Of a stretch of 64,000 nucleotides of DNA, positions 9,840 through 44,000 are shown piece after piece; positions within the stretch are counted from its first letter, which is position 1; each line of letters begins with the position of its first letter. The notes beneath the pieces are model-generated. The model saw only the letters and a list, made by a program, of their open reading frames with translations. It was not told the origin of the DNA and did not search any database. Source of the DNA: Liolophura sinensis (taxonomy: Eukaryota > Mollusca > Polyplacophora > Chitonida > Chitonidae). Made by a program: the position numbers and the translations under genes. The stretch lies in the NCBI RefSeq assembly GCF_032854445.1, contig NC_088301.1, positions 11,280,281 through 11,344,280 of the forward strand, given 5' to 3'.

Positions 9840-12800
9840 ATGGCTAACCCATTGTTTTCCCATCCGCCCAATACCTCCAGCACAGTCCAGTGCTTGAAAT
9901 ATGTTCTGTATTCCATGTTCCTCTTGATCCTGGTGAGTATGGGTTGCCTTTCCTGCATAATGGTGGCTCAGGTCCAAGCTGGATTAACCATTGGGCTCTT
10001 GTTATACATGAATAAGTCTTCTGTCAGGGATGGACACAAGATCTCATTGAGTCTGTCAGAAGTTTTCTAGAAAATCAAATGTGCAAAAAGTTGAAAAAAA
10101 AAATTTCTGTCTAAAACATATATTATTAAATTTTTACTTAAAATTTAAGATCTCACTGGTACATTCATTTAATAGCAAGCACTTAGAAATATCTAGACTA
10201 AAATCAGTCAAATGGGGGGCGTGTTTTCGATAAATACATGCACTTAGATTTATGTTGTTTATGTTGTTGGACTAACTCCCCATTAGATGTCACTGATACA
10301 CATTTTATATTATCCATAGAAATACCTTAAAATGGCTGGAAATGCATTTCCAAGCACACACAAAATCTGTGGCCTTCAGATCCCTGGCTATTTTGGTCTG
10401 TTTTGCCCTTACTTTGCGATGGACGAAATTTTTTCCAAAAATTCAAACAACTTAAAATTTTTTAAAGTTTTACATCACTTAAGTTTGCCAGAGTTCACTG
10501 TGGGCCTGTCATGTTTGTCGGTAAACTGTTTCCGCAAACCATTAAACTGTCATCCTATGAAAGTTAAATACATGTAAGCAATCAAATAAATAAACACATA
10601 ACTGTGAGAATCATTTCACAAAATTTAAATGTAGTTGGGGAAGGGCATTACATAAATTGATGTAAATTATTGAAATTTTGTGAGTACATAATAAATATGC
10701 AACTGGACCAACCAGTTTCTTGCATAGTTGGAAGACTTTTTTGAAGAATGTGTTGCATTCTTAGACACTGAAAACGAAAAAAAGGAGATCTTAAAAGCAA
10801 CAGCTATTTATTCACGAAGCATCCCATAGTTGCCTGAAACATTTGATATTCACACAGCCACAGAATATTTTTAAGGCAGTGGTACATTTAGAAAATGAAG
10901 TGATAGTAGCCAATCACCACACCAATCAAATAAATAAATAAAATGTGCCATAAAATGTGTGTAATCGCTGAATGTTTCAGGTGGGTGGGTTTGCTGTGCT
11001 GGGGATTGGGATCTGGACCCAGACCACAGAGTACGGGGGGAGACAACTCTCTAACCTGATTGGGGCCCACCTTTACCTGATTGACTCCTACTTGTTCATC
11101 ATTTGTGGCTGTACCATCCTCCTGATCACTGTACTGGGCTTCTGTGGGACCTTCCATGAGAACAAGTGTATGCTGGAACTGGTGAGTGATGTGAGCAAGC
11201 GTATGCTGGAACTCTTGAGTGATGTGAGCAAGTGTATGCTGGAACTGGTGAGTGATGTGAGCAAGTGTGTGCTGGAACTGGTGAGTGATTGGAGCAAGTA
11301 TATCTTGGAGCTGGTGCATGATTGGAGCAAGTGTATGATGGAACTGGTGAGTGATGACAGCAGGTGTATGCTGGAGCTGGTGAGTGATGGCAACAGGTGT
11401 ATGCTGGAGCTGGTGAGTGATGTGAGCAAAAGTATGCTGGAACTGGTGAGTGATGTGAGCAAAAGTATGCTGGAACTGGTGAGTGATGTGAGCAAAAGTA
11501 TGCTGGAGCTGGTGAGTGATGTGAGCAAAGGTATGCTGGAGCTGGTGAGTGATGAGAGCAAGTGTATGCTGGAACTCGTAAGGGATTGGAGCAAGTGTAT
11601 GCTGGAACTGGTGAGTGATGAGAGCAAGTGTATGTTGGGACTGGTGAGTGATGTGAACAAGTGTATGCTGGAATTGGTGAGTGAGGAGATGAGGTGTATG
11701 GTTTACTTTACAATTAACTGGTACTGGTATAAACTGGTGAATGGAGATTTAAGTTAACCAAATTCAAACACACAAATCTCCAACTGTCATACATTACCTT
11801 ATCTTGTTATCATTGTTAAAACAGTAAAAGAGTGGTAAGACAGTAAAATTTTATCCTCAACTGGGACATTTGTGGCAGCATTTTGGGAAACAGATCGTTA
11901 AGGAAAATATTGACCCTTGGAGCATAGGTAGATCGTGAATAGCTGAAGCTGAGTTGATGTATTGTTTTCTTTTGCTTGACAGCACCTGTGTATTATGGCA
12001 TTCTTGTCTATAACGCTCGTGGTTGGAGGAGGCCTGGGATTTGCTTTCAGAGATGAGGTAAGTCACTGAAGATAAGGAGATAACCATTGTTTGCGGATTC
12101 AATCTTTGAGCCGAGTGCAGTTTTATTTAAGACTGACTCTCTGCAGGTCTGTTTTTAATTATACAGCACAGAAAAAGTTCTCCATGCATCTCCTCCCAAA
12201 CTGCTGCATCGATTTTTTTGGAACTTGCCATTTATCTTGCCCATCATGTGAACTCATCTGAAAGTTTAATGGAAATCTCATCATTATTTAGCAACTATTC
12301 CTAAAGTACTGAACCTATTTTCATAAACTTTGGATCTAATTTTGTGCACTCTTAGGTCTAATTACATGCTTAATAATATTGAGAGTCTGATTAATATTTT
12401 ATTTTCTTTCTGTCAATTCTTGGAAATCTTAGCGGATGAGAGAGGAGTATTTTGGATATCCGGATTCTATAATGTAGTTAAAGAGATGGTTTAATTGTGA
12501 AAATAAATAAATAAAAACTGTCAAAGAAAATATTTTCTTCTGCAGTTTAGAAATATGGAGCCTAGGCACCCTTATTCTTATTACCTATTAACTTACCTTG
12601 TTCTGCTTTTATCTGAAGTCTAAACTAATATGTCTATGCTAAACGGACTATTTATGGGAGTTCCAAGCCAGGAAATAATGGTATTCCTTGATATTAATCT
12701 GTATTTTTTGCTGATAAGTACTTGTATGTTGGACAGTTGGAGGTTGGAGTGAGAGAGAAGCTGGTTAATAGCTTAATAGAGGGCTACGGAGTGGACGTTC

Positions 12801-22696: not shown

Positions 22697-25600
22697 TCAG
22701 CGAGTGAGTCCCAGCCTGTGACAACTCTCATCCTGTTGACTGAAAGCTTCGTAGACATTGGCTGCCAGGTCCCTTAGTGGCTCCATTACCAGCAACTCCT
22801 GTCAAAAACCAGACTGGATTTGGTTTCTTCACATTCATGGTTAGGCTGCACTTATTTATTTTTTTTTATTTGCGTTTTGTGCCAAACTTTAGAATATGTC
22901 GCTTTAATGCGTTGTGCTGGAAGACATTCAAAAGGTACATTTAAGGTACACCATGTTAATTTTACATAGAGGTACACTGCTCCAAATGGCATCAATGTTG
23001 AATCTGTTATGGTAAGTTATTTAACAATGCCTTATTTAAAATTTCTGAGACAAGATATACATGGAAAAATTTCTCTTGGATTTATGGATTTGATTGGTGT
23101 ATTATGCAAAAGAACTTTCCACTGATATGTACGCAAGATGATGGAGGAAACCAGAGTACATGAAGAACTGCACCTGACTGTAAACTTGTAGTTTGTTAGC
23201 ATTACTTGGTATTTACACAGATCAAAATTTACTTCTGTCATATAATGACAGTTTTTCTATGTAGAGGGCAGGTTTCACTGTCGACAAATTCATAGTGCTG
23301 TCTCACTAGGACAACCAGTCAAAGACAAGACAAAAGTAGACAAGACAAAGGTAGACAAGACAAGATGCCTCACTTCATCACAGCTGTACAGGTACAGAAC
23401 TGACCAGTATGTGGCTACACATCTTATTCTCAGCACAGAGCAAAAAAGGAAAATCAGGATTACTGACTTTAAGGATGCCCCAGCACAGGATTGAACTCAG
23501 GGACTCCTGCTTACATGATGACATAACCATGGCCTTGTTGTGAGTCTCACCTGTATGAATGGATTAGGGGAATCCCCACACAGCCTGACCATTATCCCAT
23601 TGACCACGGGGATCAGCTTAGCCAAGGGAACTTTGTTGTCGTGGATACTGAGGGAGGAATACACAGATACATACATGTATATTGTTATATAAACATGGTC
23701 ACACAGCAGGATATGGTGTAGGGCGTGGCCGAGTGGATAAAGGACGACTCTGTCTGTCAATCACAAGGATACATGAGGTAAGGCTTTAATCCTTGCCTTA
23801 GGCAGGGAATTCTAAGGCTTTGGTGACAATAATAGATTGATGACCCTTGTATGGCCATATTCACAATCCAACGTTGTCTCCCAACAGGATATCCGTGAGC
23901 CACATGTGGGAAAGTTTGTCATTAACTTGCCAGTGGCCGGGGGTTTTACACCAGGGACTCCATATTCTTCGTCATAAAACTGCGGACCATCATATAGGTG
24001 AAAAATTCTTGAGTAAACCATTAAGACATAGCAGGACATATCCACTCTAATCCCGGTTAACGTCATTCGGGTAAGAATGGGCAGAATACAAAGGGACTTG
24101 CTGGTACCTGGTTGTGATTTGGAAGTACTATGTGCTATACAGTTAACTGTTACATAACATAACTCACATAACTTAAATGAAAACTTGTTATTGCACACTT
24201 AAGTTGACGAAAATCACACACACACACAAATGTTCAGTTCTCATATTAAACCGTTCCCCCCAACCACAGATAATCGTTCAAACAATAAAAGAGCGAGGTG
24301 CACATCTGAAAAGTGTAAATACTGGTTGAGAAGCAGACACAAAGGTAGGATTATACCCTGCATTCACAAGATTTCTTTACCTTTTGGACCCTGATGCTTC
24401 TCCAGTGACTGTGGACAGAAACGCTCGATAGCCCTCCATTAGAAAGTCCATGAAACGAGCAAAGGCCTTGTTCACGCACACTTGTAACACTGAATGGAAA
24501 TCTTCACTACAATGAGACATAATTTGTTAACAAGACTTATTTTTCTTCATTGGTGTTTTGTGCCATACTGAAGAATATTTCACTTACACGACGGTGGTCA
24601 GCATGAAGGCAGGAGGAAACTGGGCAGAGCCCAGTGAAACTCAGACCATCTGCAGGTTGATCGGAGAGGAAGCTAGTTATGAGCTGGACTTGAACTCATG
24701 CCAACTGCACTGTTGAGAGGCTCCTGGTTCACTGTGCAGCACTAGAACGCTGACCAATAGGCTACGGAGGTCCATGTCAATAAAAGCAGCCAGTCCTAAT
24801 TTTATTCATTCTTCCATTCTAGTCTGTGAAGCCTATTTCTGCAAAGTTATACCTGTTTTTTCGATGTTGTTTACCTGGTGAGTTTATTTAGGGTTTACAA
24901 TTATTTTCAACATTATTTTGCTTGTATCATGATTGTATCAAAAAGGGCATAAAAAAAAACAAATAAATTTTCACAACCATGGAATGCACCCGCTTGAAGT
25001 CACCCGCTTGAGTTGTGAAGTCACTCAATCCCTATCTTGCCTTTTCGCTGCACACACTGAATGAGCAAAGCATAAGTGAAGAGACGTCTGACATGTTTCT
25101 AGTTTCTTTTATATGGCATACCCCACGGCCTTTAAAGAATTCCACATTAAAAACTGGCTTATAGAAATACCATGCATGTCAGAAAAAATGGTTGTGGTCG
25201 TTCAGGTCATTTGAATTGTTTGCTTTCTTTTTTTATATACAACAATTTATGTTTGATGATCATTTACAAAGCGCCTGTAGTATTGGTTGAGAGTGAAGTG
25301 GGTCCAGTCTAACATAAACTTTACACAGAGAAAACCTCCAGTCACTACCACACCTGTAGTATTGATTGAGAGTGAAGTGGGTCCAGTCTAACATAAACTT
25401 TACACAGAGAAAACCTCCAGTCACTGCCACACCTGTAGTATTGATTGAGAGTGAAGTGGGTCCAGTCTGACATAAACTTTACACAGAGAAAACCTCCAGT
25501 CACTGCCACACCTGTAGTATTGACTGAGAGAAAAGTGGGTCCAGTCTAACATAAACTTTACACAGAGAAAACCTCCAGTCACTGCCACACCTGTAGTATT

Positions 25601-28600
25601 GACTGAAAGTGAAGTGGGTCCAGCCTAACATAAACTTTATACAGAGAAAACCTCCAGACACTACCACACCTGTAGTATTGATTGAGAGAGAAGTGGGTCC
25701 AGTCTAACATAAACTTTACACAGAGAAAACCTCCAGTCACTGCCACACTGGTAGTAGTGATTGAGAGAGAAGTGGGTCCAGTCTAACATAAACTTTACAC
25801 AGAGAAAACCCCCAGTCACTGCCACACCTGTAGAATTGATTGAGAGAGAAGTGGGTCCAGTCTAACACAAACTTTACACAGAGAAAACCTCCAGTCACTG
25901 CCACAAGACCACCAAAGACTGATGGCCGACTACTAGAATGAGTCACTGTGTTGTGCAAACTGACCTGTCAATCATATCCCTGGTCTGTGCTAACAGTTCT
26001 TCATACACAACTTCTTCTGGCAGGCTGTCTGCACTCTGGGTATAGAAACACAAGCATGAGTCACAGTAAATTGTTCATTGTATGTCTTTGGGTAAAACAT
26101 ACAGTTAACATCATGTTATAAAGATTAATTGTCCTTAACTGAGAGACTGACTAGTGCAAAATTCATGACTATTTTACTAATATGATAGTTGTCAATGTCA
26201 TGGCTGGAAAATTCCTTGCCTCAGGCTGGGATTGAACTCATGCCTAATATGTTTGAGCGACAAAGTCCTGTACCCGCTCTGGAGGGATCATTAAGTTGGG
26301 AGGTAAGAATGGTACCGAGTTGTTTGAGGGCTGACTTACACAATCCTGTACTTGCTCTGGAGGCAGCATAAAGCGATAAAGTGGGCAGGTGGGGATGTTA
26401 CCGAGTTGTCTGAGGGATGACTTACAAAGTCCTGTACTTGTTCTGGGGGCAGCATGAAGTGACAAAGTGGGCAGGTGGGGATGGTACTGAGTTGTCTGAG
26501 GGATGACTTACAAAGTCCTGTAATTGCTCTGGGGGCAGCATGAAGTGACAAAGTGGGCAGAGGGGGATGTTACTGAGTTGTCTGAGGGATGACTTACAAA
26601 GTCCTGTACTTGCTCTGGGGGCAGCATGAAGTGACAAAGTGGGCAGGTGGGGATGTTACTGAGTTGTCTGAGGGCTGACTTACAAAGTCCTGTACTTGTT
26701 CTGGGGGCAGCATGAAGTGACAAAGTGGGCAGGTGGGGATGTTACTGAGTTGTCTGAGGGATGACTTACAAAGTCCTGTACTTGCTCTAGGGGCAGCATG
26801 AAGTAACAAAGTCGGGAGGTAAGAATGGTACTGAGTTTGTTTGAGGGATGACTTACAAAGTCCTGTACTTGTTCTGGGGGCAGAATGAATTCACAAAGTG
26901 GGCAGGAGGGGATGTTACTGAGTTGTCTGAGGGATGACTTACAAACTCCTGTACTTGCTCTGGGGGCAGCATGAAGTGACAAAGTGGGCAGGTGGGGATG
27001 GTACTGAGTTGTCTGAGGGCTGACTTACAAAGTCCTGTACTTGTTCTAGGGGCAGCATGAAGTGACAAAGTGGGCAGGTGGGGATGTTACTGAGTTGTTT
27101 GAGGGATGACTTACAAAGTCCTGTACTGCTCTGGGGGCAGCATGAAGTGACAAAGTGGGCAGGTGGGGATGGTACTGAGTTGTCTGAGGGATGACTTACA
27201 AAGTCCTGTACTTGTTCTGGGGGCAGCATGAAGTGACAAAGTGGGCAGGTGGGGATGTTACTGAGTTGTTTGAGGGCTGACTTACAAACTCCTGTACTTG
27301 TTCTGGGGGCAGCATGAAGTGACAAAGTGGGCAGGTGGGGATGGTACTGAGTTGTCTGAGGGATGACTTACGAAGTCCTGTACTTGCTCTGGGGGCAGCA
27401 TGAAGTGACAAAGTGGGGAGGTGGGGATGGTACTGAGTTGTCTGAGGGATGACTTACAAAGTCCTGTACTTGTTCTGGGGGGCAGCATGAAGTGACAAAG
27501 TGGGCAGGTGGGGATGGTACTGAGTTGTCTGAGGGATGACTTACAAAGTCCTGTACTTGTTCTGGGGGCAGCATGAAGTGACAAAGTGGGCAGGTGGGGA
27601 TGGTACTGAGTTGTCTGAGGGATGATTTACAAAGTCCTGTACTTGTTCTGGGGGGCAGCATGAAGTGACAAAGTGGGCAGGTGGGGATGGTACTGAGTAT
27701 TTTGAGGGCTGACTCACAAAGTCCTGTACTTGCTCTGGGGGCAGCATGAAGTGACAAAGTGGGCAGGTGGGGATGGTACTGAGTTGTCTGAGGGATGACT
27801 TACAAAGTCCTGTACTTGTTCTGGGGGCAGCATGAAGTGACAAAGTGGGCAGGTGGGGATGTTACTGAGTTGTTTGAGGGATGACTTACAAACTCCTGTA
27901 CTTGCTCTGGGGGAAGCATGAAGTGACAAAGTGGGCAGGTGGGGATGTTACTGAGTTGTCTGAGGGATGACTTACAAACTCCTGTACTTGTTCTGGGGGC
28001 AGCATGAAGTGACAAAGTGGGCAGGTGGGGATGGTACTGAGTTGTCTGAGGGATGACTTACAAAGTCCTGTACTTGCTCTGGGGGCAGCATGAAGTGACA
28101 AAGTCGGGAGGTAAGAATGGTACTGAGTTTGTTTGAGGGATGACTTACAAAGTCCTGTACTTGTTCTGGGGGCAGAATGAATTCACAAAGTGGGCAGGTG
28201 GGGATGTTACTGAGTTGTCTGAGGGATGACTTACAAACTCCTGTACTTGCTCTGGGGGAAGCATGAAGTGACAAAGTGGGCAGGTGGGGATGTTACTGAG
28301 TTGTCTGAGGGATGACTTACAAAGTCCTGTACTTGTTCTGGGGGCAGCATGAAGTGACAAAGTGGGCAGGTGGGGATGGTACTGAGTTGTCTGAGGGATG
28401 ACTTACAAAGTCCTGTACTTGCTCTGGGGGCAGCATGAAGTAACAAAGTGGGCAGGTGGGGATGGTACTGAGTTGTCTGAGGGATGACTTACAAAGTCCT
28501 GTACTTGTTCTGGGGGCAGCATGAAGTGACAAAGTGGGGAGGTGGGGATGTTACTGAGTTGTTTGAGGGCTGACTTACAAAGTCCTGTACTTGTTCTGGG

Positions 28601-31600
28601 GGCAGCATGAAGTGACAAAGTGGGCAGGTGGGGATGGTACTGAGTTGTCTGAGGGATGACTTACAAAGTCCTGTACTTGCTCTGGGGGCAGCATGAAGTG
28701 ACAAAGTGGGGAGGTGGGGATGGTACTGAGTTGTCTGAGGGATGACTTACAAAGTCCTGTACTTGTTCTGGGGGGCAGCATGAAGTGACAAAGTGGGCAG
28801 GTGGGGATGGTACTGAGTTGTCTGAGGGATGACTTACAAAGTCCTGTACTTGTTCTGGGGGCAGCATGAAGTGACAAAGTGGGCAGGTGGGGATGGTACT
28901 GAGTATTTTGAGGGCTGACTCACAAAGTCCTGTACTTGCTCTGGGGGCAGCATGAAGTGACAAAGTGGGGAGGTGGGGATGGTACTGAGTTGTCTGAGGG
29001 CTGACTTACAAAGTCCTGTACTTGTTCTGGGGGAAGCATGAAGTGACAAAGTGGGGAGGTGGGGATGTTACTGAGTTGTTTGAGGGCTGACTTACGAACT
29101 CCTGTACTTGCTCTGGGGGAAGCATGAAGTGACAAAGTGGGCAGGTGGGGATGTTACTGAGTTGTCTGAGGGATGACTTACAAAGTCCTGTACTTGCTCT
29201 GGGGGCAGCATGAAGTGACAAAGTGGGGAGGTGGGGATGGTACTGAGTTGTCTGAGGGATGACTTACAAAGTCCTGTACTTGTTCTGGGGGGCAGCATGA
29301 AGTGACAAAGTGGGCAGGTGGGGATGGTACTGAGTTGTCTGAGGGATGACTTACAAAGTCCTGTACTTGTTCTGGGGGCAGCATGAAGTGACAAAGTGGG
29401 CAGGTGGGGATGGTACTGAGTATTTTGAGGGCTGACTCACAAAGTCCTGTACTTGCTCTGGGGGCAGCATGAAGTGACAAAGTGGGGAGGTGGGGATGGT
29501 ACTGAGTTGTCTGAGGGCTGACTTACAAAGTCCTGTACTTGTTCTGGGGGAAGCATGAAGTGACAAAGTGGGGAGGTGGGGATGTTACTGAGTTGTTTGA
29601 GGGCTGACTTACGAACTCCTGTACTTGCTCTGGGGGAAGCATGAAGTGACAAAGTGGGCAGGTGGGGATGTTACTGAGTTGTCTGAGGGATGACTTACAA
29701 AGTCCTGTACTTGTTCTGGGGGCAGAATGAATTCACAAAGTGGGCAGGTGGGGATGTTACTGAGTTGTCTGAGGGATGACTTACAAAGTCCTGTACTTGT
29801 TCTGGGGGCAGAATGAATTCACAAAGTGGGCAGGTGGGGATGTTACTGAGTTGTCTGAGGGATGACTTACAAAGTCCTGTACTTGCTCTGGGGGCAGCAT
29901 GAAGTGACAAAGTGGGCAGGTGGGGATGGTACTGAGTTGTCTGAGGGATGACTTACAAAGTCCTGTACTTGTTCTGGGGGGCAGCATGAAGTGACAAATT
30001 GGGCAGGTGGGGATGGTACTGAGTATTTTGAGGGCTGACTCACAAAGTCCTGTACTTGTTCTGGGGGCAGCATGAAGTGACAAAGTGGGCAGGTGGAGAT
30101 GGTACTGAGTTGTCTGAGGGATGACTTACAAAGTCCTGTACTTGTTCTGGGGGCAGCATGAAGTGACAAAGTGGGGAGGTGGGGATGGTACTTGAACCCT
30201 GAACAACACCACACTCCAGTTTCATTCGAATTTTCTCTAAGTAGTTTTGGACATCACCCAGGGAAAGTTTCTCCTTCAGAGACACGCTGAAAAGAGAAAT
30301 ACAATATTTAGCACTGTATCTCGTGACTGCTTGCGCACATTTATCATAAGCGTAAGTGATTTGTAAATCACTAGGATCACGATCGTAGCATTAGCTAACA
30401 ATCGACACCCCCTTTCAAACGGCGTAATGTATTTTTACAATCAATTGTAAACTCTAGTTGTAGGCTCTACAGTTGACTGTAGCTACAATCTTTGTGCCTT
30501 CGGGCCCCGATATCTGACAAATAAGTATATTTACAATGGCCACAACATTTTGAGCTACCAAATTTGTAACACATTAAACAAGAGACATGAAATTATCTAA
30601 ATGATGACAAATTACTATTTTATTACTTCCCAATCTACAGCTCCTTTCTTCTGTCTATTTCCTAATACTGGGGTATATTTTCACGGTATGATTTCGTTGC
30701 ATATACACAACTAGCTTTAAGGGGTACAGAATCGACTCTGATTGGCTGGTGCGAGAGATTGGCAAGTCCATGCTATGCACTGCCTAAGCTGAATTTTAGG
30801 TATGGTGCATTTATTCAGGCGTGAACAAGGCTGCAAGATTTAACCCAGGAAACCCTGTCTACACTGTCAGCCAATATGTGTGAATTCTGTATCCCTTAAA
30901 TGTTCTCTTTTTGTTGTTTTTTTCAATGTTTTTTCATGTTTTAATGTCAATGTGATATGTATTACCTGCCAACTGTAGACTTGACCGCAGCATGCACGGC
31001 CATACTGAGTTCATCCACACCTTAGAAAAATTGCAAAGCAACCAACATGAATAGACAGGAAAATCATGATTTGATGAACAATATGAAGTCTAAAAAGTAC
31101 TCAACGTTAAAATGATATAATTTCATCATATTTCATAGAAGAGCTAGGTGTTTATTTTCTGAAGTAAAGAGAGAACGGAGTCAGAAATGTTGATGTTGTC
31201 TATATTTCTGGTATTGCTGTACCTTTTGTGATGAAGAACTGTATCAGAGACAGGTATTTCTCCTGTGTGATGGAGGGTATTAACACGCGGACATCTGACT
31301 CCACCTGCGTAAGTACAAGAGTACAACAATATACACATATAGAAGAAGTTTCTTTATAAAAAACAATATAGCCTATCACACTAAAATTCCGCAACAATAA
31401 ATATCACTTCATACATATACGGTGTTGATCAGATCCCTGCCAAATTACCTCCCTTGAGGCCACTCTCCCTCATGAATAGAATGTTTTAAGGACCTATAAA
31501 ACAAGGCATTTAGATAATACTGGTAGCTTGCCTAATTGAGGAGTTTGCAAAATTGAATAATGTTCAAATCATATGATACATTCAAATATTAACCTCTGAA

Positions 31601-34600
31601 ACAAAATAAAGCAGAATGATTGACACTGTCATACACAGATATTATTCTCTTATCATGCCAGTAACTCAACAAAAAAGACCAAAATTATTATACTGTCACA
31701 ACTATCACTGTTTAATGTATGTGTAAGAATTGCAGAGCAGTGACTTTACATGTTCTGGAGTTGTAAATTATTGTGGTGGTAATAGACACTGTGGGGAGTT
31801 AGTGCACAAATTTACCACAAAGGTCTTTGATACGCAAATCCCGCACTACATTTGGCAATCCATGTACTATGGGAGGGAACTGCAACCCTGTGAATAGCTA
31901 AGCAAAATGTTGAGCTATGAGGTACCGGCCCTGATGGGAGTGTCTGCTTTTGGGCAGTAGATCCAGAATCAATCCTGGTTTTTTTGCTTGGCGTTCAGCA
32001 AAAAAGCCTGAATGTGCAAAATAACCGACAGTTTAGACCAAATCTATCAAATCATACATTATATGAGAGCCAAAAGTAAAACATCACCTTCATCGCAGCT
32101 CTCTTTTTTTGTGTTGAGTAATAGCCTACAGACTGTATGTCAGATGAGGTTTCACTTCTCACAGTTCTATGTATCAAAACAAATCTCACGATTTCTCAAC
32201 AGCCATTGTTGATTGACAAGGAAGACAATATATATATATTGTATAGACTTATTGAACACAATGTTTTGTACTCCATTTGTACTCTCTTACCTGGTCAACT
32301 CTGTGTAGAAAGTTATCCAGGTACAAGTAGCCTCCCATGATGTTGAGCTGGACTCGTAACAATACAACCAGAATGGAGGAGCTGTACGCAGCTGTAATAC
32401 TGCGGGAAAATGCTACCACCAGAGATTAGAGAGTTACACTAAACAAACAGTTCCCATCACTGAAAGACGATGCTTTTTAAAGTACAATCACAGATCTATC
32501 CTATGTTTTACAGCAGTTTGAAGTATCATTAACTTTAAATACAAAGTTTTATGTGGAGATTGATGGCTACTATTTCAGTGGCTTTATATTTATTTGCTCT
32601 TCAGGAACTTAATGGAAAATGATAATTAAATTTAAAAAAAAAAAAAATATCAAGAACTTTATGCATCAGAAAACAAAATCTTTTTGAACTACTTTCAAGG
32701 TTTTCAACCTTTCAACAAAATTCCAGGACTATGAAGGATTTCAATGTCCAGTTGAATCCCGTAGACAGCTCGTCAGCCAGACAGGAGGAATTTTTCTATG
32801 TTGACAAGTACAGTATGTGTCAGTTACATGTATAAAATTAGTACCCGTCATACACAATTAAGCTTTCCTTGTAACATTTAATGACATGCTTACACATGAC
32901 TTTGAGTTCCTCCCACAGATCCAACTTATTACCCGTCCTGGAAACAAGTAAGTAATTAAACTATATCATGGTTAATCATTAATACAGTCTTGTTGATATA
33001 CACAGTTTGAGCTTTTTGTATTCACATGACTCTATATTACTAGAAATATGGCCTTTCTTACAATACATTGCTGTAATTTTCAGTTTCAGTTTAAACACAT
33101 GTGCTACTTGTATTATCTGTACACTGTTGAATATTTCTTTAAAATAGCCTCAGCACTGTATTTCAATCATTACTTTGCACATGAATTTTCAATTTAAAAT
33201 TATCGACAGTACCAAAATTGTAAATTAAAAAAGAAATGCCTGTGGCTTTGGTTCCTGTAATTCTAATTGGGCTATATGAAATATCCTGTTAATCATACAA
33301 ATTGTTATGTACTTTATGTTATTTACATTTATTTAATTAATTAGTGTTTGATGCAGTACTGAAGAGTATTTCACTTATATGGTAGCCATATTATGGTTCG
33401 GAGGAAACCGGGCCAAGTCCGGAGGAAACCCACGACCATCTGCAGGTTGCTGGCAGACAATCCCTTCTATTACCGGAAAGGAAGCCAGCAACTGTATTGG
33501 TGAGAGGCTCCTGGTCATTGTGTTGTGCTCGCATGCTAACCACTGGCCATGAAGGCCATTAATGAAACTTAACAATCTGGATTAATGACCATGGTATTCC
33601 AAGCAAAACTGTTATGACGTATTTTCATTTGAACACTCACTGTGATTCTATGCTGGCCTTGATCTTTTCTGTATCCATGGAGCGTCTCAGAGACTCTCGT
33701 AGATTTGGCAACATTGACAGCACTATAATTACATGAAAATGAATATCACTTATCATAAAATCATAAAAATCTTGTGAATCTATAATTCTGGGCTTATTTG
33801 TGGAACTGTTTAAATTGATAAACGCGTGAAATTAATACCCTGATACTTACCAGTCATATTGCACGTTCTCTGATTGCTGTCAAAATGATGCTGGCGCCTG
33901 TAACAGATACGAGATAAATGACAGCTAAGTTCATGACAATGTACAATGATAAATTACAAATCAAAAGTGCACTTTGTGCAGCGCAACAGTGTCTTCTGCA
34001 TGAATATGTGTGTGACTAACACTGATTCAGTTTTGTAGGTAAGCTGAGTTGGTAATATGCTGATACAAACTTGTAATTCTGACTAGAGCGTCACAACAGC
34101 AAGAGCTACAATACTTTGATGTAGTAGTTCGTATTCCCAGCAGAAGGATATTTTGTGTATGATTTGTCCAAATAAAAGCTATGCCCTTCATTCCCAACTC
34201 ATCACTGGTGGTTATAGATTGCACTGGAGTACTTGTCGCTAAGAAAAATCGAACCCAGAGACTTGCATTTTCACCTTATTGCCTGATCCCGAGACCATCT
34301 GGATGATATTCTGAGATTGCTTTGATGTTTAATGGATTTGGCAGAATTTTGTTCATCCGGGTATGGTTCCAAACCAGCTGTGATAAACTGACAGACCAAA
34401 AGATAACAAACATATGTGTCTGCAAACTTAAAGACGTATTTGATAAGTAACTTTTTACTCAAACACAAACAAACTGCCACACCAACTGCATCAGGTTTCT
34501 AAATGGAGTGGGCTGTGAAGTTGGTATGGGGCTAGTTCAATCAAATTAAACTTTGAAGTCTATTTAAATGTTGAGGTAGGTAAATATCAGAAACATTTAA

Positions 34601-35266
34601 TTTAATTGAACTATTATGGGGCTATCCTTTCCGAGCCTAAGTGAACAACGTTTAATATACTACTTCCAGATTTTATATTTTTGACATTCATTCAGTCTGT
34701 CGACCAATAAGGTAAATGCCAGAATGTAAAACTAGGAGGGAGATCATTTAGCTTGATGAATTGGCCTGAACCAAACGCCAGAGCAATCTCGGACTATCTA
34801 GATGAGTCTGATATTTAAAATTCTAACAGTCAGTGTTAAAATGAATGTGCATCTAGATGGACTACCTGATCCCCTGCTAAATCACAAAGCTCTCACTTGG
34901 TCTCACCTCGCCAGATCGATGCACTCTGCTGCTTCCTTCTCCTGGAACTCATGGAGCTTCTTCTTGAAATACTGGAAAGTCAGGTAGGTGCCTATGGAGT
35001 AAAAACAAAATTCCTTGCAAGGCATATTAAAGCCATGTTTAGGCTAAGTGCAAGTTTACACTGAGGGGACTGATGAGACACTGGTGTGTCATGGAAACAG
35101 TGAATCTAGCAGACTAAACTAAAGTTACGAAAACTGGACACTTTATGAAGTCCTATAGCTTACAGACAGAGCATTAAGTTTTTGCTTTACCTCCGATCAG
35201 TACCCCGCTATAGAGGATTTTCCTCCTGTGACGTTTAAAGAAGTTCCAAAGTCTTTCAAATGGCAT
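22697..35266 (-). CDS. PEX3: PEX3, peroxisomal biogenesis factor 3, complete
   Basis: Thirteen coding exons, in order: 35191-35266, 34907-34991, 33851-33897, 33641-33722, 32894-32937, 32291-32412, 31223-31304, 30966-31020, 30130-30286, 25965-26035, 24381-24506, 23551-23647, 22697-22798 (stop TGA). All junctions are GT/AG with matching phases, giving 381 residues (human 373). PEX3 is the peroxisomal membrane anchor that docks PEX19 with its membrane-protein cargo. Diagnostic matches: the N-terminal basic stretch [11 protein letters not shown] followed by a membrane segment (about 15-33), [36 protein letters not shown], whose Trp105 corresponds to the tryptophan known to contact PEX19, [10 protein letters not shown], and C-terminal [12 protein letters not shown] and [10 protein letters not shown]. 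Exon 9 ends with PPEQVQDF, and its end plus donor site is tandemly amplified in intron 9. Intron 9 (about 4.1 kb) is almost all satellite. The gene converges with the tetraspanin and lies downstream of RIOK1 on the same strand. No stops or frameshifts interrupt it, so it is probably functional. Confidence 0.97.
23078..23215 (-). mobile_element. SINE type A fragment in PEX3 intron 12
   Basis: Reverse tail, TTTGATTGGTGTATTATGC, then GATGGAGGAAACCAGAGTAC. The head is absent. Confidence 0.65.
23707..24036 (+). mobile_element. SINE type B, near full length
   Basis: The head, GGGCGTGGCCGAGTGGATAA, resembles the A-box region of a leucine or serine tRNA. The body includes GGGAAAGTTTGTCATTAACT and GCCAGTGGCCGGGGGTTTTA. 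The tail is GGTGAAAAATTCTTGAGTAA. It is antisense to PEX3 in intron 11 and reaches close to exon 12. Confidence 0.75.
24540..24773 (-). mobile_element. SINE type A upstream of PEX3 exon 11
   Basis: Reverse copy: TTGGTGTTTTGTGCCATACT, GGAGGAAACTGGGCAGAGCC, then CTGACCAATAGGCTACGGAG for the head. It starts about 30 bp outside exon 11, on its intron 10 side. A short internal deletion follows CTGCAGGTTG. Confidence 0.85.
25274..25905. repeat. 79-bp minisatellite, 8 copies, PEX3 intron 10
   Basis: Copies start at about 25274, 25353, 25432, 25511, 25590, 25669, 25748 and 25827 with CCTGTAGTATTGATTGAGAG and continue through GTGGGTCCAGTCTAACATAA. Divergence is only a few percent. It begins about 60 bp after the exon 10 donor (- strand) but shows no exon-derived sequence. 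Confidence 0.95.
26250..30189 (-). repeat. 86-bp minisatellite made of PEX3 exon 9 end plus 5' splice site, about 46 copies
   Basis: Read on the - strand, each unit is 60 nt equal to the last 20 codons of PEX3 exon 9 (starting ACCATCCCCACC and ending GTACAGGACTTT), the donor GTAAGTCATC, and 16 further intronic nt ending CAACTCAGT. The first copy (30189 downward) belongs to the genuine exon, since only there is the upstream unique exon sequence present. The rest fill intron 9. Most copies keep TTT|GTAAGT or TTT|GTGAGT. Units vary between 85 and 87 bp (a G-run of 5 or 6; TGCTCT or TTGTTCT). The left end, near 26250, is the most diverged. With 86 = 3n+2 the frame is not kept between units, so the array is not coding as a whole. 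Confidence 0.97.
33330..33560 (-). mobile_element. SINE type A in PEX3 intron 4
   Basis: ATTAATTAGTGTTTGATGC tail, CGGAGGAAACCGGGCCAAG, ACGACCATCTGCAGGTTGC, and GCATGCTAACCACTGGCC for the head. A deletion removes the middle of the head. Confidence 0.85.
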
Positions 35267-38008: not shown

Positions 38009-41000
38009 TCAGCGTTTGGGTTTTAAACTCTGTTTGCCAAGTTTTTCCTTGCGCTTTTTCACATGCTTTGGAATTTTCTGTTTTCGTTTTTCCTTCTGAG
38101 CCTCCTTAACAGCCTTCTTTCTATCCTGTACAAAAGAAAAAGAATTTATTTATCAGAATGATTTTATTATTATGTTGTTGCTTGCAAGATGTGGTAAGCA
38201 TAAAGCGTAACATTGCATTCCTGAAGATGGCTACATACAATGTAGTTACAGAAATATAAACTAACAAATATGTGGACTTCAATATTGAGAGTTTCTCTCA
38301 TTTTGTGTAGCTTTATGTGAATTCTTCGAGTTGTTTTGAAACGATTTTCATCAAAAAGCTCCTATTCAATTCAGAGTTACTATGGTAGTTTGCCTTTTTC
38401 AGGTCAAAATACCTGAGACAAAGTTTGACATGAGTTTGGGTAATTCTTGACTAGTTTATGTCCTTTCCTACAACATGTTAAATGTGCTCAAACAAAAGCC
38501 TCTAATAAGCAATCTGCAGAAAGCTGCCACCCTTTACACCAGTTGGCCCAGGTCAGGTCATACAGGTTAGACTTAAGAAATGGCATTTACTGCTGTCTTG
38601 CTTAGCCTTCAGCAATGAGAAGTTAGATCAAGGAAACAGGACTGGTTGGCTCAGTGCCAGTATAACGTGATTAGGTGGGGTGTCTTTGGCAGCTTGGGTT
38701 TGCCCTGCCACAAGAAGACACAATATACGTACACACACCCAATGAGTCCTAAATGTCATACGACTGAAAAATTGATAAGTATGATGTTAAACTCCAAGCA
38801 TGCTTACATACTCAAATTGGCCAAAGGAAATAGTGAAGCACTCTTCGTTTTTGGTTTAAAAACTAAATATCAATTTACCTTTTTACTCGAAGGGGACTCA
38901 TCCCTTGGCCTCCCAGTGTCTACCTTTGACCCACTCTCCTGATTGCAATTGTTCCTATCCTCTCCATCACTCCCATCCTCCTCATCTGATGTACTGTCAT
39001 CATGCTTGTTTTCCTCTTCAGACTTGGGTTCTTCAACAAGTTCTGCTGTCTCTGACGCATTAAGAAGCTGTGGTTTCTAGAATGCAATGGAACAGAAAAA
39101 AATACACAGTGTCTGCGTACAACTTCTCTGTCAACTCTCAAAAATATGGCACATTTTACCTGCTAGAATACGAAGTTAGATATTATGTTTTGTGAAAGTT
39201 TTTACCACAATAGACGTATTCATATATAATTCAGTTTCTGACCAAACCTAAATGCTACAGGTTATGGGGAACTTCCATATTTTGATCATGCCTCCTCACA
39301 TTATTAAATGAAGCAAATGTGACCGCATTCATCAAGTTTGCTGATAAAGTTGTTGACCAACCTCTTGGGCTCCTGAAAGATCCGACTTTAGTCCTGTCAC
39401 AGTCTGGTATAGAATCTGTAACACAAAAATTCTGTCACTCAATTACATAACACGAGTTACTACCTGTAAATGAAAACACATTACTGTAATTCTTCAACCT
39501 TTTCACAAGTTCGCAAGCTGTTTATTCAAACATATTCTGACACTATTCTTCTCCATTGACAGATAAAATTATACTTTCGTAGAGCCATGAAACTGGTCAA
39601 TCCAACCAATGTAGTTTTGTCTTCAAAATCAAATTAAAAATGTGCATAAACTGCACTGGAAATTGGCCTTTCATATGTGAAATGGTTGAGGAACGTCGTT
39701 CAAAAATAGGCAGACAGTTATTTTTTGGAAAGGACTACCTCATTTTAAAGCAAGAACCTAATTCAGACAGCCATTTTGCATTTTGAAAGAATAGACAACA
39801 AATAATGTAACCTTAATTATTTCAGGCAAGAGCTGGAAACATATCTAAATTACCACAGACATATTTTTCTGACCATATAAATCAAAATTTTATCTGGAAT
39901 TCATGAGGCCATAGAATACGCCATATTAGAGAAACCAGAATCAAGATGTCATGTCACTCATCGGTTTGCTCAATCAGTCTGTATGACGAAGAAGGCAAAA
40001 CAGTGTTCCCATGACAACAGGTGTAGTCTCTGGTATTCGCAAAAAAAAAAAAAAAAATTCTCACTGGTTAAGAATGATAGCATGGCAGCATTTTTAGTTG
40101 ATGTGAGCCATATTGCTTTATGCTCTGAATTGTGGTATCTTGTGGCAAATAAAAAGTCGTGCTTTTCAAATTTTGTGTTGGATGCTCTTTTGATACGTAT
40201 ATACATTTGGTCTAATGTTGTCTTTTCTTACAAAAGATAGTCAAACCTATCTATCTTGCAGTGCTTGAAGCTGACCATGCGGTATTTTCAGGCAGATAAT
40301 CAAACTTTTAATTACTAAGAGGAATTTGTGAGTTCTGATGCACTGATGATAATTACCCATGGACAACATGTCTCCCACAATGACCTTCCAAAACAATGAG
40401 TATCATATCACATTTCTTGCTGATATATTTATTTATTTATTCATTTGATTGGTGTTTTACGTCGTACTCAAGAATATTTCACTTATATGATGGCGGCCAG
40501 CATTATGGTGGGAGGAAACCAGCCAGAGCCCGGGGGAAACCCATTATCATCTGCAGGTTGCTGCAAGACCTTCCCACATACGGCTGGAGAGGAAGCCAGC
40601 ATGAGCTGGACTTGGGCTCACATTGGTGAGAGACTCTTGGGTCATTACGCTGCACTAGCGCGCTAACCAACTGAGCCACAGAGGCCCCCTTTTCTTGCTA
40701 ATGTATTGGGTTGAAATTGAAAACATCTTGTGTTTAAAGGCCTGCCGTCAGGGAATTAAACTGTGCATAGGCTTTTATTTGTGCACAGTTTGCAGTAGTT
40801 TTGCATATTTTGTTATTCAAATTTAAATTATTACTATCCTGCACATAGCTACTTTTGTACGATGTTGTTGTGTGGAACATCAAAAACACAAGCTGCCTAA
40901 AAATGCAGCCTGACCTGTTGTACATCTCCTCTCCGAGCTTTATCATAATCTTTCTCAAAGTTCAGGACCTCGTCCAGGGTGCGTGGAATATAGGCATTTC

Positions 41001-44000
41001 GAAACACTCCCTCGTCAACCTTGTCTTGCTCTGTCACATCTTCTATCGTACGTGTTGACGTTATCAACATTGCCTTCTCCAGATAATCATCCATGTTTTC
41101 TGCTGTGACTGTCACATCCGTCACAAAGTCAAACAGTTCTTTCATCGTAAGTGTGCATACACCTTTTTTTCGGAAAAAGTCTGCAGAGGAAAAATATTAC
41201 AATCAGCTTGGCCATTTTGTTCTCATATCAAGTAAAGATTTACTGGTGTTTTATGGTTCATTGTGATTTAATTCCATTTTCCTTTCGATTATTTATTAGT
41301 AATTTATATAATGGATTGGAGTTTTACACCGTACTTCAAAAAAATACTTCATTCATACTACAGCAGCAGGCAATATGGTGAGAGGAAACCAGGTAGAGCC
41401 CGGCAGAAACCTATGACCATCTGCAAGCTGCTAGAAGACCTTTCCATGTAAGACTGTAGAGGAAGCCAGCATTAGCTGGACTTGAATTCATAGTGACTGA
41501 ATTAGTGAAACGCTCCTGGGTCATTGTGATGTGCTAGTAAACTAACCACTCAGCCACAAAGTTCCATTTTCCTCAATGGAGCTTGGGCATTTTTTCTCTC
41601 GGCACTCTTCGAGAGATTTGTAATTTGCTTTAATGATTTTCTGTTTTCTGTTTTTCAATGACTGGAATTCATGGGAGACTAATACATTTCACTTTTTCCC
41701 TTCATAAGCTTGGAAAAACCAAAGGTTAATACAATGTGGTATCTTACCTGTAACATTGCTGCAGTCTTTGCGTAAAAACTCCAGAGAGTGAGGATGATCG
41801 TGTTCTACTGACTGAGAGACATCAATGATGAAAATCTTCCCCTGGTGGAATCTGCAACATCAAAAATATTTTACCAAGAAATAACAACCAAAATCAGCAC
41901 CCATTACAGCAAAGTGGTTTGTAAAATTACCCTATATGTACCTAGTCCTAATTCAATGCCACTGTTAGAGAAAGTCAAACTGAGCCATGTGACATTTCCT
42001 GATGCCATGTGATGTTCTTTTGTGATTTACTGCAAACCATGACTTTTCTCACTTAGGGAATGTCATCAGTTGAGAAAAAACTGATAAAATTTCTATTTTA
42101 GAACATCCAAATCTACTCAGGCACAATATGAAACCCAATAGCTGAATACTATAAATCAACAATAATTAATTTCACTTGGAATTTTTCACCGACTTTGTTT
42201 TTGGACCTGTCTGTACTGTATGAACTGTTGTACAAAAGGGTGATTCATTGGTAAACAATCATGTAAAGTTATACATATTTACAGAAAGTCATATTTCTTT
42301 TGATTTTTCACCAACTGAGTACACCAGGTTGTTTAAAAAATCTATGAAATTATAGGTGATTTATACTATATGCAACCTCTTGGCCCACATCTTATTAAAC
42401 TGTCTGTATTTGCTCACCACAAATTCACACCAAAAAGACTGTGACTATTTGGGGACATTCAGTGCTGATTAACTTATAGTTGAGAAAGGAGATTATGAGT
42501 TAATGCACCTGATCTTAATTCAACTTGAGAACACATCAAAGAGATCTGAGCTTGTCCAACCTAAAACTCAACTTTGTCCAGGTATGGCTACATCATACAG
42601 CCGCCTAGCTATCATTAAGGATTTCCAACAAATGATGAAGATTTTTCCTTTGCTCTTTTCTTTAAACACTGGTAAATGCGGAGGAACTCACAACATGTTG
42701 AACTCGCTGAGGTCTGCATGGACGAGGCGACATTCCTGGTAGAGCGTCCTTACAATGTGGATACACTGGAGGTACAGCTCTCGTGCCTTTCCCTCGGACA
42801 AGCTCACATCCTTGAGCAGGGGAGCAGGCCTGTAGTAAACACAGTCATTAATGGACACGAAGATTCAGTTTACATAATTATTTGATTCTTGTCCAACGCC
42901 ACACAGAAGAACTTTTCAGTCATATGATGGCAATCGGTTTTACCGGTGTAGTGCCTGGCTTAAACCATCGCCCTTTGGCAAGTTACTAGCTGACTAACTT
43001 TCCCACAGTTGATGGTAGACAAGTGGTACTCAACAATTGTCAGATTGTGCAAAAATGGTTGTACGTGCATTGGTAACTGCTTGTTCTCATAAACACTGAG
43101 ATTTGAGGAATGTACAGTTGAAAGACATGCACCATTAAGTATGGCCATGATCCACTCCACAAGGGGACTCCAATACACTGATGCAATTCCACTCAAAATG
43201 ACGCATTTATATAAATCACATGCAATGGAAAATCAATACAGGAGTTTTGAGTTCTCACAAATTTAACACAACAGAAGAACTAGAAGAATACATGCTGAAG
43301 AAAACATCAGATAACATGTGTGGTATGAAATGTTAGCCGCTAACCATCCTTCTGTACCCAGGAACTCCATCACCAACACATGACTCCGCAGCATGATTGG
43401 CTCGGGACAGGGCACTCCTGATTGGTGGATTCTGCAAGTCAAAGGTCAATATAAGGCATTTAAGATGATGGCTTCACGTACAGATTGTCCTCTTACACAC
43501 ACACTCAGCAATTCTGTACTATTTGTCAGTGGTGAGAAATAATTAAAAATGATTTAAAAATAATCGAATTTCTAGATTTTCTCAACCTTAATCAGCACTA
43601 AAATTTAGTGAATTGGTCCTTAGCCCAATGTATGTCCGTGAAGAAAATTTCATCTAAATTCCTGTCAGACAGACAGACAACTAAATGCTTGTAGGAATGT
43701 AACCTCCTTGTCAGAAGTATGGTAAATGACCTCATGTTCCTGGGACTCGGAAAGTGTATCCCAGGATTCACTGCGTTGATTGTGCTTCCTACTGACTGGG
43801 CGCCACTGGAGAGCATCGGCAGTGGTCAGGGGATAATATGGACAGTTCCCGAATGTAATAAACAAGTCCACGCTTCACTGTGTAGTCAGTGTATGCTCCT
43901 GCCACCAACAGTTCATGTTTTCCTCAGTTTTAATCATAATGAATTTAGAAAATAACAGTTTACTTCACAAAATCACTCTCTTCTGCCATCTTGCCGCCAA

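Follow-up and report, generated by a model that had tools for sequence, protein, structure and literature searches.

Tandem amplification of the PEX3 exon 9 5' splice site, and of other exon edges, in the chiton Liolophura sinensis

At the junction of exon 9 and intron 9, PEX3 of Liolophura sinensis carries an array of 46 in-register 86-bp units, each consisting of the last 61 nt of exon 9 followed by the donor and the start of the intron (25 nt); one unit is the exon's own and 45 are extra copies in the intron. This array is best explained, with a probability of about 0.65, as a minisatellite that grew across the splice site in the ordinary way and is tolerated because the copy joined to the exon would be the one used.

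Structure of the PEX3 gene and its array

The window (the whole 64,000-nucleotide stretch analysed) contains an intact PEX3 gene on the minus strand at 22697..35266, with 13 coding exons and 381 amino acids according to its splice sites and open frame. The spliced protein belongs to Pfam family PF04882 (196.5 bits, cut-off 27.6, E 1.2e-57) and matches the human PEX3 structure 3mk4 (3.6e-83), with an agreeing spliced length; searching the genome exon by exon with PF04882 gave no match, and the spliced protein decided the identity. All 38 matches of the PEX3 protein in the genome lie at this one locus.

PEX3 exon 1: 35266-35191, minus strand
PEX3 exon 2: 34991-34907, minus strand
PEX3 exon 3: 33897-33851, minus strand
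PEX3 exon 4: 33722-33641, minus strand
PEX3 exon 5: 32937-32894, minus strand
PEX3 exon 6: 32412-32291, minus strand
PEX3 exon 7: 31304-31223, minus strand
PEX3 exon 8: 31020-30966, minus strand
PEX3 exon 9: 30286-30130, minus strand; 157 nt, entered in phase 2 and ending in phase 0 at ...EQVQDF
PEX3 exon 10: 26035-25965, minus strand; acceptor TTTCTATACCCAG
PEX3 exon 11: 24506-24381, minus strand
PEX3 exon 12: 23647-23551, minus strand
PEX3 exon 13 (last exon): 22798-22697, minus strand
Tandem array: 26238..30190, minus strand; 46 in-register 86-bp units, the exon's own included (45 extra)
First unit (u00), which is still coding, exonic part of 61 nt: 30130..30190, minus strand; 1 nt from the array consensus
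First donor, GTAAGT: 30124..30129, minus strand; of 45 tested, the sole donor yielding PEX3 with exon 10

The initial annotation placed about 46 copies of the exon 9 end and its donor here, and both the in-register count and Tandem Repeats Finder (TRF; 26309-30192, period 86, 45.1 copies, 93% matches) bear it out, though its division of the unit into 60 and 26 nt is corrected to 61 exonic and 25 intronic nt. The homology that it claimed between the unit and the coding end of exon 9 was also upheld, as the joined exon 9 and 10 peptide aligns with LCHYMMPDEE of human PEX3 across the junction. The resemblance of EQVQDF to the C-terminal EQVKDF of human PEX3 had raised the possibility that the array derives from the last PEX3 exon; this origin was rejected because the last exon is present at 22798-22697 and collinear.

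The units share a mean identity of 93% and comprise 35 distinct sequences; a block of six is exactly duplicated (u06-u11 equal u12-u17), and the unit farthest from the exon, u45, differs much more than any other. In a genome search with the unit, which scored the best candidates and skipped very common words, every match fell inside the array. With its 86-bp units arranged head to tail at a single locus, the array fits the definition of a minisatellite or variable-number tandem repeat (VNTR; units of roughly 10-100 bp), and among those best candidates no unit copies lay elsewhere, as a transposable element or dispersed satellite would have. Locus specificity together with the exact multi-unit duplication points to local tandem growth, and the latter, seen in one assembly, makes copy-number polymorphism between individuals likely. 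RNA folding of the exon end and units was no better than that of shuffles (z +2.45, +0.94 and +1.65).

Donors, decoy acceptors and reading frame

The donors of the 46 units run from 30129 to 26261 and read GTAAGT in 40, GTGAGT in 4, GTAAAT in 1 and GTCGCT in 1 (the last, degenerate copy), in agreement with the earlier statement that nearly all copies keep an intact donor. The description of dozens of competing donors in a gene required for peroxisomes likewise stands. Joined to the acceptor before 26035, the first donor gives full-length, 381-aa PEX3; none of the 44 alternative donors (the last, GTCGCT, was excluded from the frame test) restores the frame, and all lead to premature stops 29 or 43 codons past exon 9. 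Splicing must accordingly either strongly favour the first donor or make premature-stop transcripts, as had been anticipated.

What would secure the first donor is less evident. The rating of the site as a good donor held on the intronic side and failed overall, TTT/GTAAGT ranking 11th of the 12 PEX3 donors in U1 pairing, the second weakest. Its U1 pairing is no better than that of the copies, and preferential accessibility was not seen, 31 other donors being equally or more accessible. This lack of a first-donor advantage, and the presence of a decoy acceptor in every unit, are points against use of the exon-joined site. In cis-competition experiments, the intron-proximal of two identical 5' splice sites is often favoured; such a preference would choose the wrong donor in the PEX3 array and thus counts against our explanation.

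The decoy acceptor, TGCCCCCAG, has a pyrimidine fraction of 0.77 (four units scored), compared with 0.55-0.73 at the 12 real PEX3 acceptors, and its AG lies 17 nt before the donor of each unit, which would allow 69-nt introns. A second acceptor-like site, CTCAG, is followed by a donor after 61 nt in 36 of 42 cases (62 nt in 5, 60 nt in 1), so the proposed 60-nt, phase-0 mini-exon is as a rule absent and the frame shifts; a 25-nt intron, moreover, would be too short for animals. With introns of at least 50 nt assumed before cassettes, PEX3 is preserved by 25 of 945 single cassettes using CTCAG and by 1 of 990 using a CCCAG acceptor.

It is possible, though doubtful, that downstream donors or array cassettes are sometimes used and the resulting premature-stop transcripts degraded, array length thereby setting the PEX3 level. 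The premature stops from 44 of 44 alternative donors, the rarity of PEX3-preserving single cassettes and the pyrimidine-rich decoy acceptors would suit such control. However, the donors show no excess conservation: 2 of their 6 sites vary among copies, and 60 of the 86 circular 6-nt blocks have as few variable sites as the donor block or fewer (45 units, u45 excluded). Put otherwise, these 60 blocks are as variable as the donor positions or less so. The variants in the exonic part comprise 19 nonsynonymous and 8 synonymous changes. The initial annotation suggested that isoforms from the array could set PEX3 level; donor conservation gives no sign that the array is retained for this, and the arrays described below also speak against it.

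Exon-edge arrays in other genes

A second array of this kind lies in the same window.

Tetraspanin exon: 10981..11181, plus strand; open frame, Pfam PF00335 3.4e-7, 30.6 bits (just below the cut-off of 32.1)
33-bp tetraspanin array: 11156..11684, plus strand; 16 in-register units, the exon's own included

Here the amplified piece comprises the last 18 nt of the exon, the donor GTGAGT and 9 further intron nt. A usable donor is present in 14 of the 16 units, and joining any of these 14 to the following exon (11983-12057) would preserve the frame, with 11 aa added per unit. GTRAG is kept in 13 of the 15 later copies; among the best candidates scored, a genome query with this tetraspanin matched its own locus alone.

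Outside the window, 71 exons of two gene families were surveyed. The survey made use of 27 ten-kb loci, 2 of which (L017 and L021) are off-centre, each with one listed exon near an end. Exon edges were taken as the edges of HMM matches, some of which contain in-frame stops, and the counts took in arrays with a period of at least 15 and at least 2.5 copies. The second sample (14 tetraspanin and 13 Ras exons) was hand-picked from match lists before the sequences were viewed, leaving out multi-stop tetraspanin matches such as C1:65030603, along with some weaker ones and the majority of the other Ras matches.

Exon ends were amplified with the donor region in 4 of the 71 exons: L030 (unit about 84 bp; spacings 84, 86, 81, 84 and 84; GTRAG in 3/5 later copies), L043 (34-35 bp; 3/4), L051 (95 bp; 4/4) and L002, which has 13 further exon-end core copies and, on inspection, no GTRAGT donor after any of them. 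In each of the six donor-side cases, the first copy has an intact donor. On the acceptor side there was one clear case (L029) and one marginal case (L042) in the 71 exons; L029 has upstream copies of TATAATTGCAG/ATCCTG..., a diverged acceptor-crossing array overlooked by TRF. By eye, no exon-derived unit was evident in the arrays of L015 and L018, nor in those of PEX3 intron 10 (79-bp unit) and near 45.5 kb (51-bp unit).

Exon tails were also compared with the downstream intron, and exon heads with the upstream one, by Smith-Waterman alignment, with 150 control segments for each comparison. In the first sample plus the window, z exceeded 2.5 downstream in 4/59 (PEX3 exon 9, the window tetraspanin, L002 and L017) and upstream in 1/58 (L011, z 5.9; L002 was lower at 4.8); in the second sample, it did so downstream in 3/27 (L030, L043 and L051) and upstream in 2/27 (L029, z 14.3; L038, z 2.6, matched by 4/150 controls). 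L011 and L017 have just one second copy each and were taken as chance or lone duplications.

Such arrays of unrelated sequence in other genes fit a general mutational process better than control specific to PEX3. One unit (33 bp) is divisible by 3 and that of L030 mostly so, which argues against a common regulatory logic.

TRF arrays reach into the 100 nt directly downstream in 9 of the 71 exons and into the 100 nt directly upstream in 1 (3 vs 0 within the second sample alone, p 0.25). The nine include L023, whose array by eye begins about 12 nt inside the intron and was therefore kept out of the 4/71. This asymmetry could mean that 5' splice sites are hot spots of tandem duplication and not merely places that tolerate arrays, which we regard as unlikely: arrays occupy 10.6% of these downstream stretches, equal to the background of 10.7% across the 27 ten-kb loci, which means no enrichment downstream of exons, and donor-like motifs are no commoner in array units than in base-shuffled ones (10 observed, 11.0 expected; 76 arrays, window included). 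Selection may lie behind the thinner cover upstream (1.4%). The L029 array led us to soften the view that arrays crossing acceptors are purged; the case for protected acceptors is weak, because L029 and the marginal L042 make the tally 4 donor versus 1-2 acceptor cases in 71, or about 5% and 1-3% of the exons sampled.

Origin of the arrays and implications

We propose the following scenario. A short piece of DNA across the exon 9 donor of PEX3, with 61 nt from the exon and 25 nt from the intron, may have been tandemly duplicated and then have grown as a minisatellite through slippage or unequal exchange. The first copy is still attached to the exon, so its donor would go on making the normal join of exon 9 to exon 10, and the remaining array would be removed as intron, its extra donors and decoy acceptors probably being neutral passengers free to decay. 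At other exon edges of this minisatellite-rich genome, a like process may have acted at donors and, in the exons sampled, more rarely at acceptors.

The reverse direction, in which an older intronic minisatellite supplied the exon end by exonization, is very unlikely. The exon copy differs from the array consensus at a single nt, as it does from each of seven other copies, suggesting that exon end and array were homogenised or diverged recently; yet the exon-derived part is collinear with human PEX3, the spliced length fits, and the tetraspanin and Ras cases likewise end in family sequence.

Even less probable is intron gain in progress, with units spliced singly as 69-nt introns between 17-nt micro-exons. 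The AG and pyrimidine tract 17 nt before each donor would permit it, and tandem duplication is a documented route of intron gain (PMC4974935, PMC3443670), but PEX3 is preserved by 0/44 chains of one micro-exon, 34/946 of two and 867/13,244 of three, and most chains contain a stop. In potato RdRp, the duplicated segment crosses an intron-exon boundary (PMC4974935), two introns gained in fission yeast consist of tandem repeats with proto-splice sites (PMC3629103), and Drosophila provides a further tandemly duplicated segment with splice signals (PMC2891723). The PEX3 array resembles these in the tandem duplication of a gene segment bearing splice signals. It differs in that amplification, up to 46-fold, affects the donor of an intron that already existed, a new intron is unneeded, use of the first donor would leave the protein as it was, and the unit consensus lacks AGGT, the proto-splice site of intron gain by this route.

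The 86-bp VNTR in intron 2 of human IL1RN is an intronic minisatellite. Like such repeats, the PEX3 array is locus-specific, is built of units some tens of bp long and contains an exact duplication of several units; unlike them, its unit holds coding sequence and a 5' splice site, and its first copy lies within the exon. As in tandem donors, donors compete at one exon end, but the overlapping alternative sites described in the available part of one report are pairs four nt apart (PMC2423196), whereas the donors of PEX3 number up to 46, are nearly identical and are spaced by about 86 nt. Donor-bearing minisatellites or VNTRs were not found in the open-licence literature, an absence that is weak evidence, as phrases with the prime sign are unsearchable.

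Least probable of all is a misassembled array or copy number: HiFi coverage is just 14x with a mean read of 8,347 bp (PMC11068029) and the exactly duplicated six-unit block could conceal a miscount, but by arithmetic about 7 reads should span the 3.95-kb array, its 35 distinct sequences make units distinguishable, and the pattern is present in five other genes.

How the spliceosome chooses among identical neighbouring 5' splice sites has been studied mostly with engineered duplications. The chiton arrays offer a natural counterpart: several genes of a single animal each carry between 5 and 46 near-identical donors, with both frame-keeping and frame-breaking units, and there is at least one acceptor array. 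Five transcriptome samples of L. sinensis are deposited (PMC11068029); if transcripts confirm use of the exon-joined copy, the genome would be a natural experiment on choosing among near-identical splice sites. The strong form of this view, in which several percent of exon edges are amplified with their splice sites into arrays of 5-46 near-identical sites, the exon-joined site strictly wins and the length of frame-breaking arrays, as in PEX3, acts as a heritable expression brake because some transcripts are spliced to downstream donors and then decay, seems to us rather unlikely. A genome-wide count of donor-crossing versus acceptor-crossing arrays would bear on the robustness of both intron ends to duplication. 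Should the exon-joined donor win every time, proximity to the acceptor would count for less than exon definition or 5'-to-3' order; if it does not, the arrays would be length-variable expression brakes in housekeeping genes.

The PEX3 array and its splice sites

The array lies in an intact gene, whose spliced product matches Pfam PF04882 (E = 1.2e-57) and human PEX3 (3.6e-83) and, in the genome, gives 38 matches, every one of them at this locus:

35266-22697, minus strand: PEX3, 13 exons, 381 aa

The genome searched comprised 609,464,459 bases in 632 contigs (GCA_032854445.1); its first publication names the species Liolophura japonica (PMC11068029), a name later corrected to L. sinensis (PMC12441733). 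Intron 9 measures 4,094 nt, and TRF placed an array at 26309-30192 (period 86, 45.1 copies, 93%). Cut in register, with the exon end itself counted as the first, the array yielded 46 units, bearing out the claim of the initial annotation that the end of exon 9 and its donor had been amplified about 46 times. The donor is, as also claimed, intact in nearly all copies (GTAAGT in 40, GTGAGT in 4, GTAAAT and GTCGCT in 1 each). Each unit comprises 61 nt of exonic sequence followed by GTAAGTCATCCCTCAGACAACTCAG, a 61 + 25 split rather than the 60 + 26 first described. The first 45 units share a mean pairwise identity of 93.4%, 35 of the 46 are distinct, and the exon-9 copy differs from the array consensus by 1 nt. 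The most diverged units are the distal u44 (11 differences, tied with u38) and u45 (39 differences), and the block u06-u11 is letter-for-letter identical to u12-u17. A search of the whole genome with the unit, scoring the best candidates, found no match outside its array; growth therefore appears to have been local and probably recent.

Three observations concern the surrounding introns. Positions 30324-30400 in intron 8 belong to a dispersed element with copies elsewhere in the genome at 78-93% identity. A 79-bp array of 8 copies (25274-25905) begins about 60 nt past the exon-10 donor; its unit contains CTACAG|GTGTGG, with no evident exon origin. Text resembling the B-box of a tRNA-derived SINE (GAGTTCAATCCCAGC / GAGTTCAAGTCCAGC) was seen by eye at the distal array edge (26180-26245) and in intron 10 (24600-24785).

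Each unit had been likened to a phase-0 mini-exon between a weak acceptor, CTCAG, and a good donor. Between CTCAG and the donor that follows lie 61 nt in 36/42 cases, 62 nt in five and 60 nt in one, so that such an exon would usually not be of phase 0, and the intron beside CTCAG would measure 25 nt. A better decoy acceptor, TGCCCCCAG, lies inside the exonic part, with a pyrimidine fraction of 0.77 (four units scored) versus 0.55-0.73 at the 12 real PEX3 acceptors; its use would give a 17-nt exon and a 69-nt intron. The donor is perfect on its intronic side but has TTT on its exonic side, and its pairing with U1 (-5.4 kcal/mol) ranks 11th among the 12 PEX3 donors.

The expectation of premature stops held for the alternative donors, none of which (0/44) would preserve PEX3 when spliced to exon 10, the stop falling 29 or 43 codons past exon 9; retention of the intron would likewise lead to a stop. 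Single cassettes, that is, array-derived exons, would preserve PEX3 in 25/945 combinations through CTCAG and 1/990 through CCCAG, the other acceptor-like site; one cassette combined with any of the six foremost donors would do so in 123/3,186. For chains of one, two and three nearest-donor mini-exons, the counts are 1/42, 139/820 and 3,166/9,880 (CTCAG) and 0/44, 34/946 and 867/13,244 (CCCAG). Donor choice alone could therefore only lose protein, whereas some multi-exon chains might in principle insert sequence in frame. The observation made in the initial annotation is thus confirmed with corrections, and its interpretation is partly supported.

Selective constraint on the array was sought in donor variability, coding variants and folding, and none was seen, the copies being similar and the power small. 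Among 45 units, 2/6 donor hexamer sites vary, and 60 of the 86 circular 6-nt blocks are no more variable than this. In the exonic part, 8 variants are synonymous (on approximately 13 sites) and 19 are nonsynonymous (on approximately 47 sites), and the exon end and units fold no better than shuffled sequence.

Arrays at the edges of other exons

A second exon-end array is present in the window:

10981-11181, plus strand: tetraspanin exon (its open frame matches PF00335 at 3.4e-7, slightly under the family cut-off)
11156-11684, plus strand: 33-bp exon-end and donor array, 16 in-register units

The exon ends in ...AAGTGTATGCTGGAACTG|GTGAGTGATGTGAGC. A usable donor is present in 14 of the 16 units, and splicing from any of the 14 to the following exon at 11983-12057 (HLCIMAFLSITLVV...) would keep the reading frame and leave it open. 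The genome matches of this query were confined to its own locus.

Outside the window, two samples from the tetraspanin and Ras families were examined: 27 ten-kb stretches with 44 listed HMM exons among them (sample 1), and 27 further exons with 440-nt flanks (sample 2). Three exon ends in sample 2 (3/27) are amplified together with the donor:

L030: tetraspanin exon end and donor, unit about 84 bp, 6 copies
L043: Ras-family exon end and donor, unit 34-35 bp, 5 copies
L051: Ras-family exon end and donor, unit 95 bp including about 78 nt of exon, 5 donors within the stretch covered

A simple scan of sample 1 for a donor within the unit plus an open frame found no case. One of its 44 exon ends, from a tetraspanin (L002), is amplified with the donor region: its core AACACCTGCATGCTGG recurs 13 times downstream with at most 3 mismatches, the donors having decayed and the last copy sitting just past the TRF array, and the exon tail aligns locally to the downstream intron with z 4.8. 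On the acceptor side, a diverged array missed by TRF (L029, 1-470) has units of about 100 bp carrying an acceptor and tetraspanin exon start, with upstream copies reading TATAATTGCAG|ATCCTG... (local alignment z 14.3), and a 29-bp array at a Ras-family exon (L042, 1-445, minus-strand reading) reaches the acceptor and perhaps a few nucleotides beyond. Among the 71 exons there were thus 4 donor-side cases (4/71) against 1-2 acceptor-side cases. Exon-edge arrays are a class, and PEX3 is not alone in this genome.

Tandem arrays with 2.5 or more copies make up 10-11% of the sample-1 stretches and 17.9% of the window; the genome is rich in minisatellites. Other large arrays and one further exon in the window are as follows:

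28-2803: 49 bp, 56 copies
46489-47850: 17 bp, 80 copies, open in several frames
61794-62525: about 32 bp, 23 copies
60485-60712, plus strand: VWA_N-like exon (Pfam E 6.8e-4, under cut-off)

The last is perhaps from a calcium-channel alpha2delta-type gene. Exons at 45057-45386 and 40897-41196 (both minus strand) resemble RIO kinase 1; Pfam gave no match to the ORF at the former, and a 51-bp array of three copies lies just upstream of it.

Position of arrays relative to exons

Within 100 nt of the 71 exons, TRF arrays were downstream only in 8, upstream only in none and on both sides in 1 (two-sided sign p = 0.008), counts that depend on HMM-match edges in two families with related genes, the idea itself having come from sample 1. 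The corresponding counts were 12, 4 and 1 within 200 nt (p = 0.077) and 13, 4 and 2 within 400 nt (p = 0.049); sample 2 alone gave 3 downstream and 0 upstream (p = 0.25). Arrays occupy 10.6% of the adjoining 100 nt downstream and 1.4% upstream, against a background of 10.7%. They touch the donor region in 4/71 exons, namely the three amplified ends and L023 (2794-3046, minus-strand reading), where a 26-bp array begins about 12 nt into the intron after a Ras-family exon, and the acceptor region in 1/71 (binomial lower tails against the base rate, 0.11 and 0.003, respectively). Upstream depletion is a lead rather than a result, because L029, invisible to TRF, would add an upstream case.

Mechanism and relation to known systems

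On the simplest reading, a duplication that spans a donor would keep the first donor intact and attached to its exon; provided splicing uses this donor, all further copies would behave as mere intron. In several of these genes (units of 86, 34-35 and 95 bp), the extra donors would shift the frame, and their survival in itself suggests that splicing mostly takes the first donor. Counting against this reading are experiments in which, of two identical donors, the one nearer the acceptor is reportedly preferred. In acceptor arrays, the last copy would likewise remain joined to the exon; however, the copies upstream of it that have pyrimidine tracts would presumably be encountered first, which may make such arrays rarer.

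The nearest idea is the gain of introns through tandem duplication (PMC4974935, PMC3443670, PMC3629103, PMC2891723), which involves AGGT, absent from the PEX3 unit; a new intron in the chiton array would be hypothetical. The human tandem donors described in PMC2423196 are close pairs. The main text of the chiton genome paper (eLife 102542; PMC12005716) has no match for 'tandem repeat' or 'satellite', and no report of a donor-bearing minisatellite was found in the open-licence literature searched. The PEX3 array is most likely a minisatellite crossing a splice site, one of many in the genome, and tolerated rather than used. The interest of these arrays lies in the class of exon-edge arrays and in the ready test of splice-site choice that they offer.
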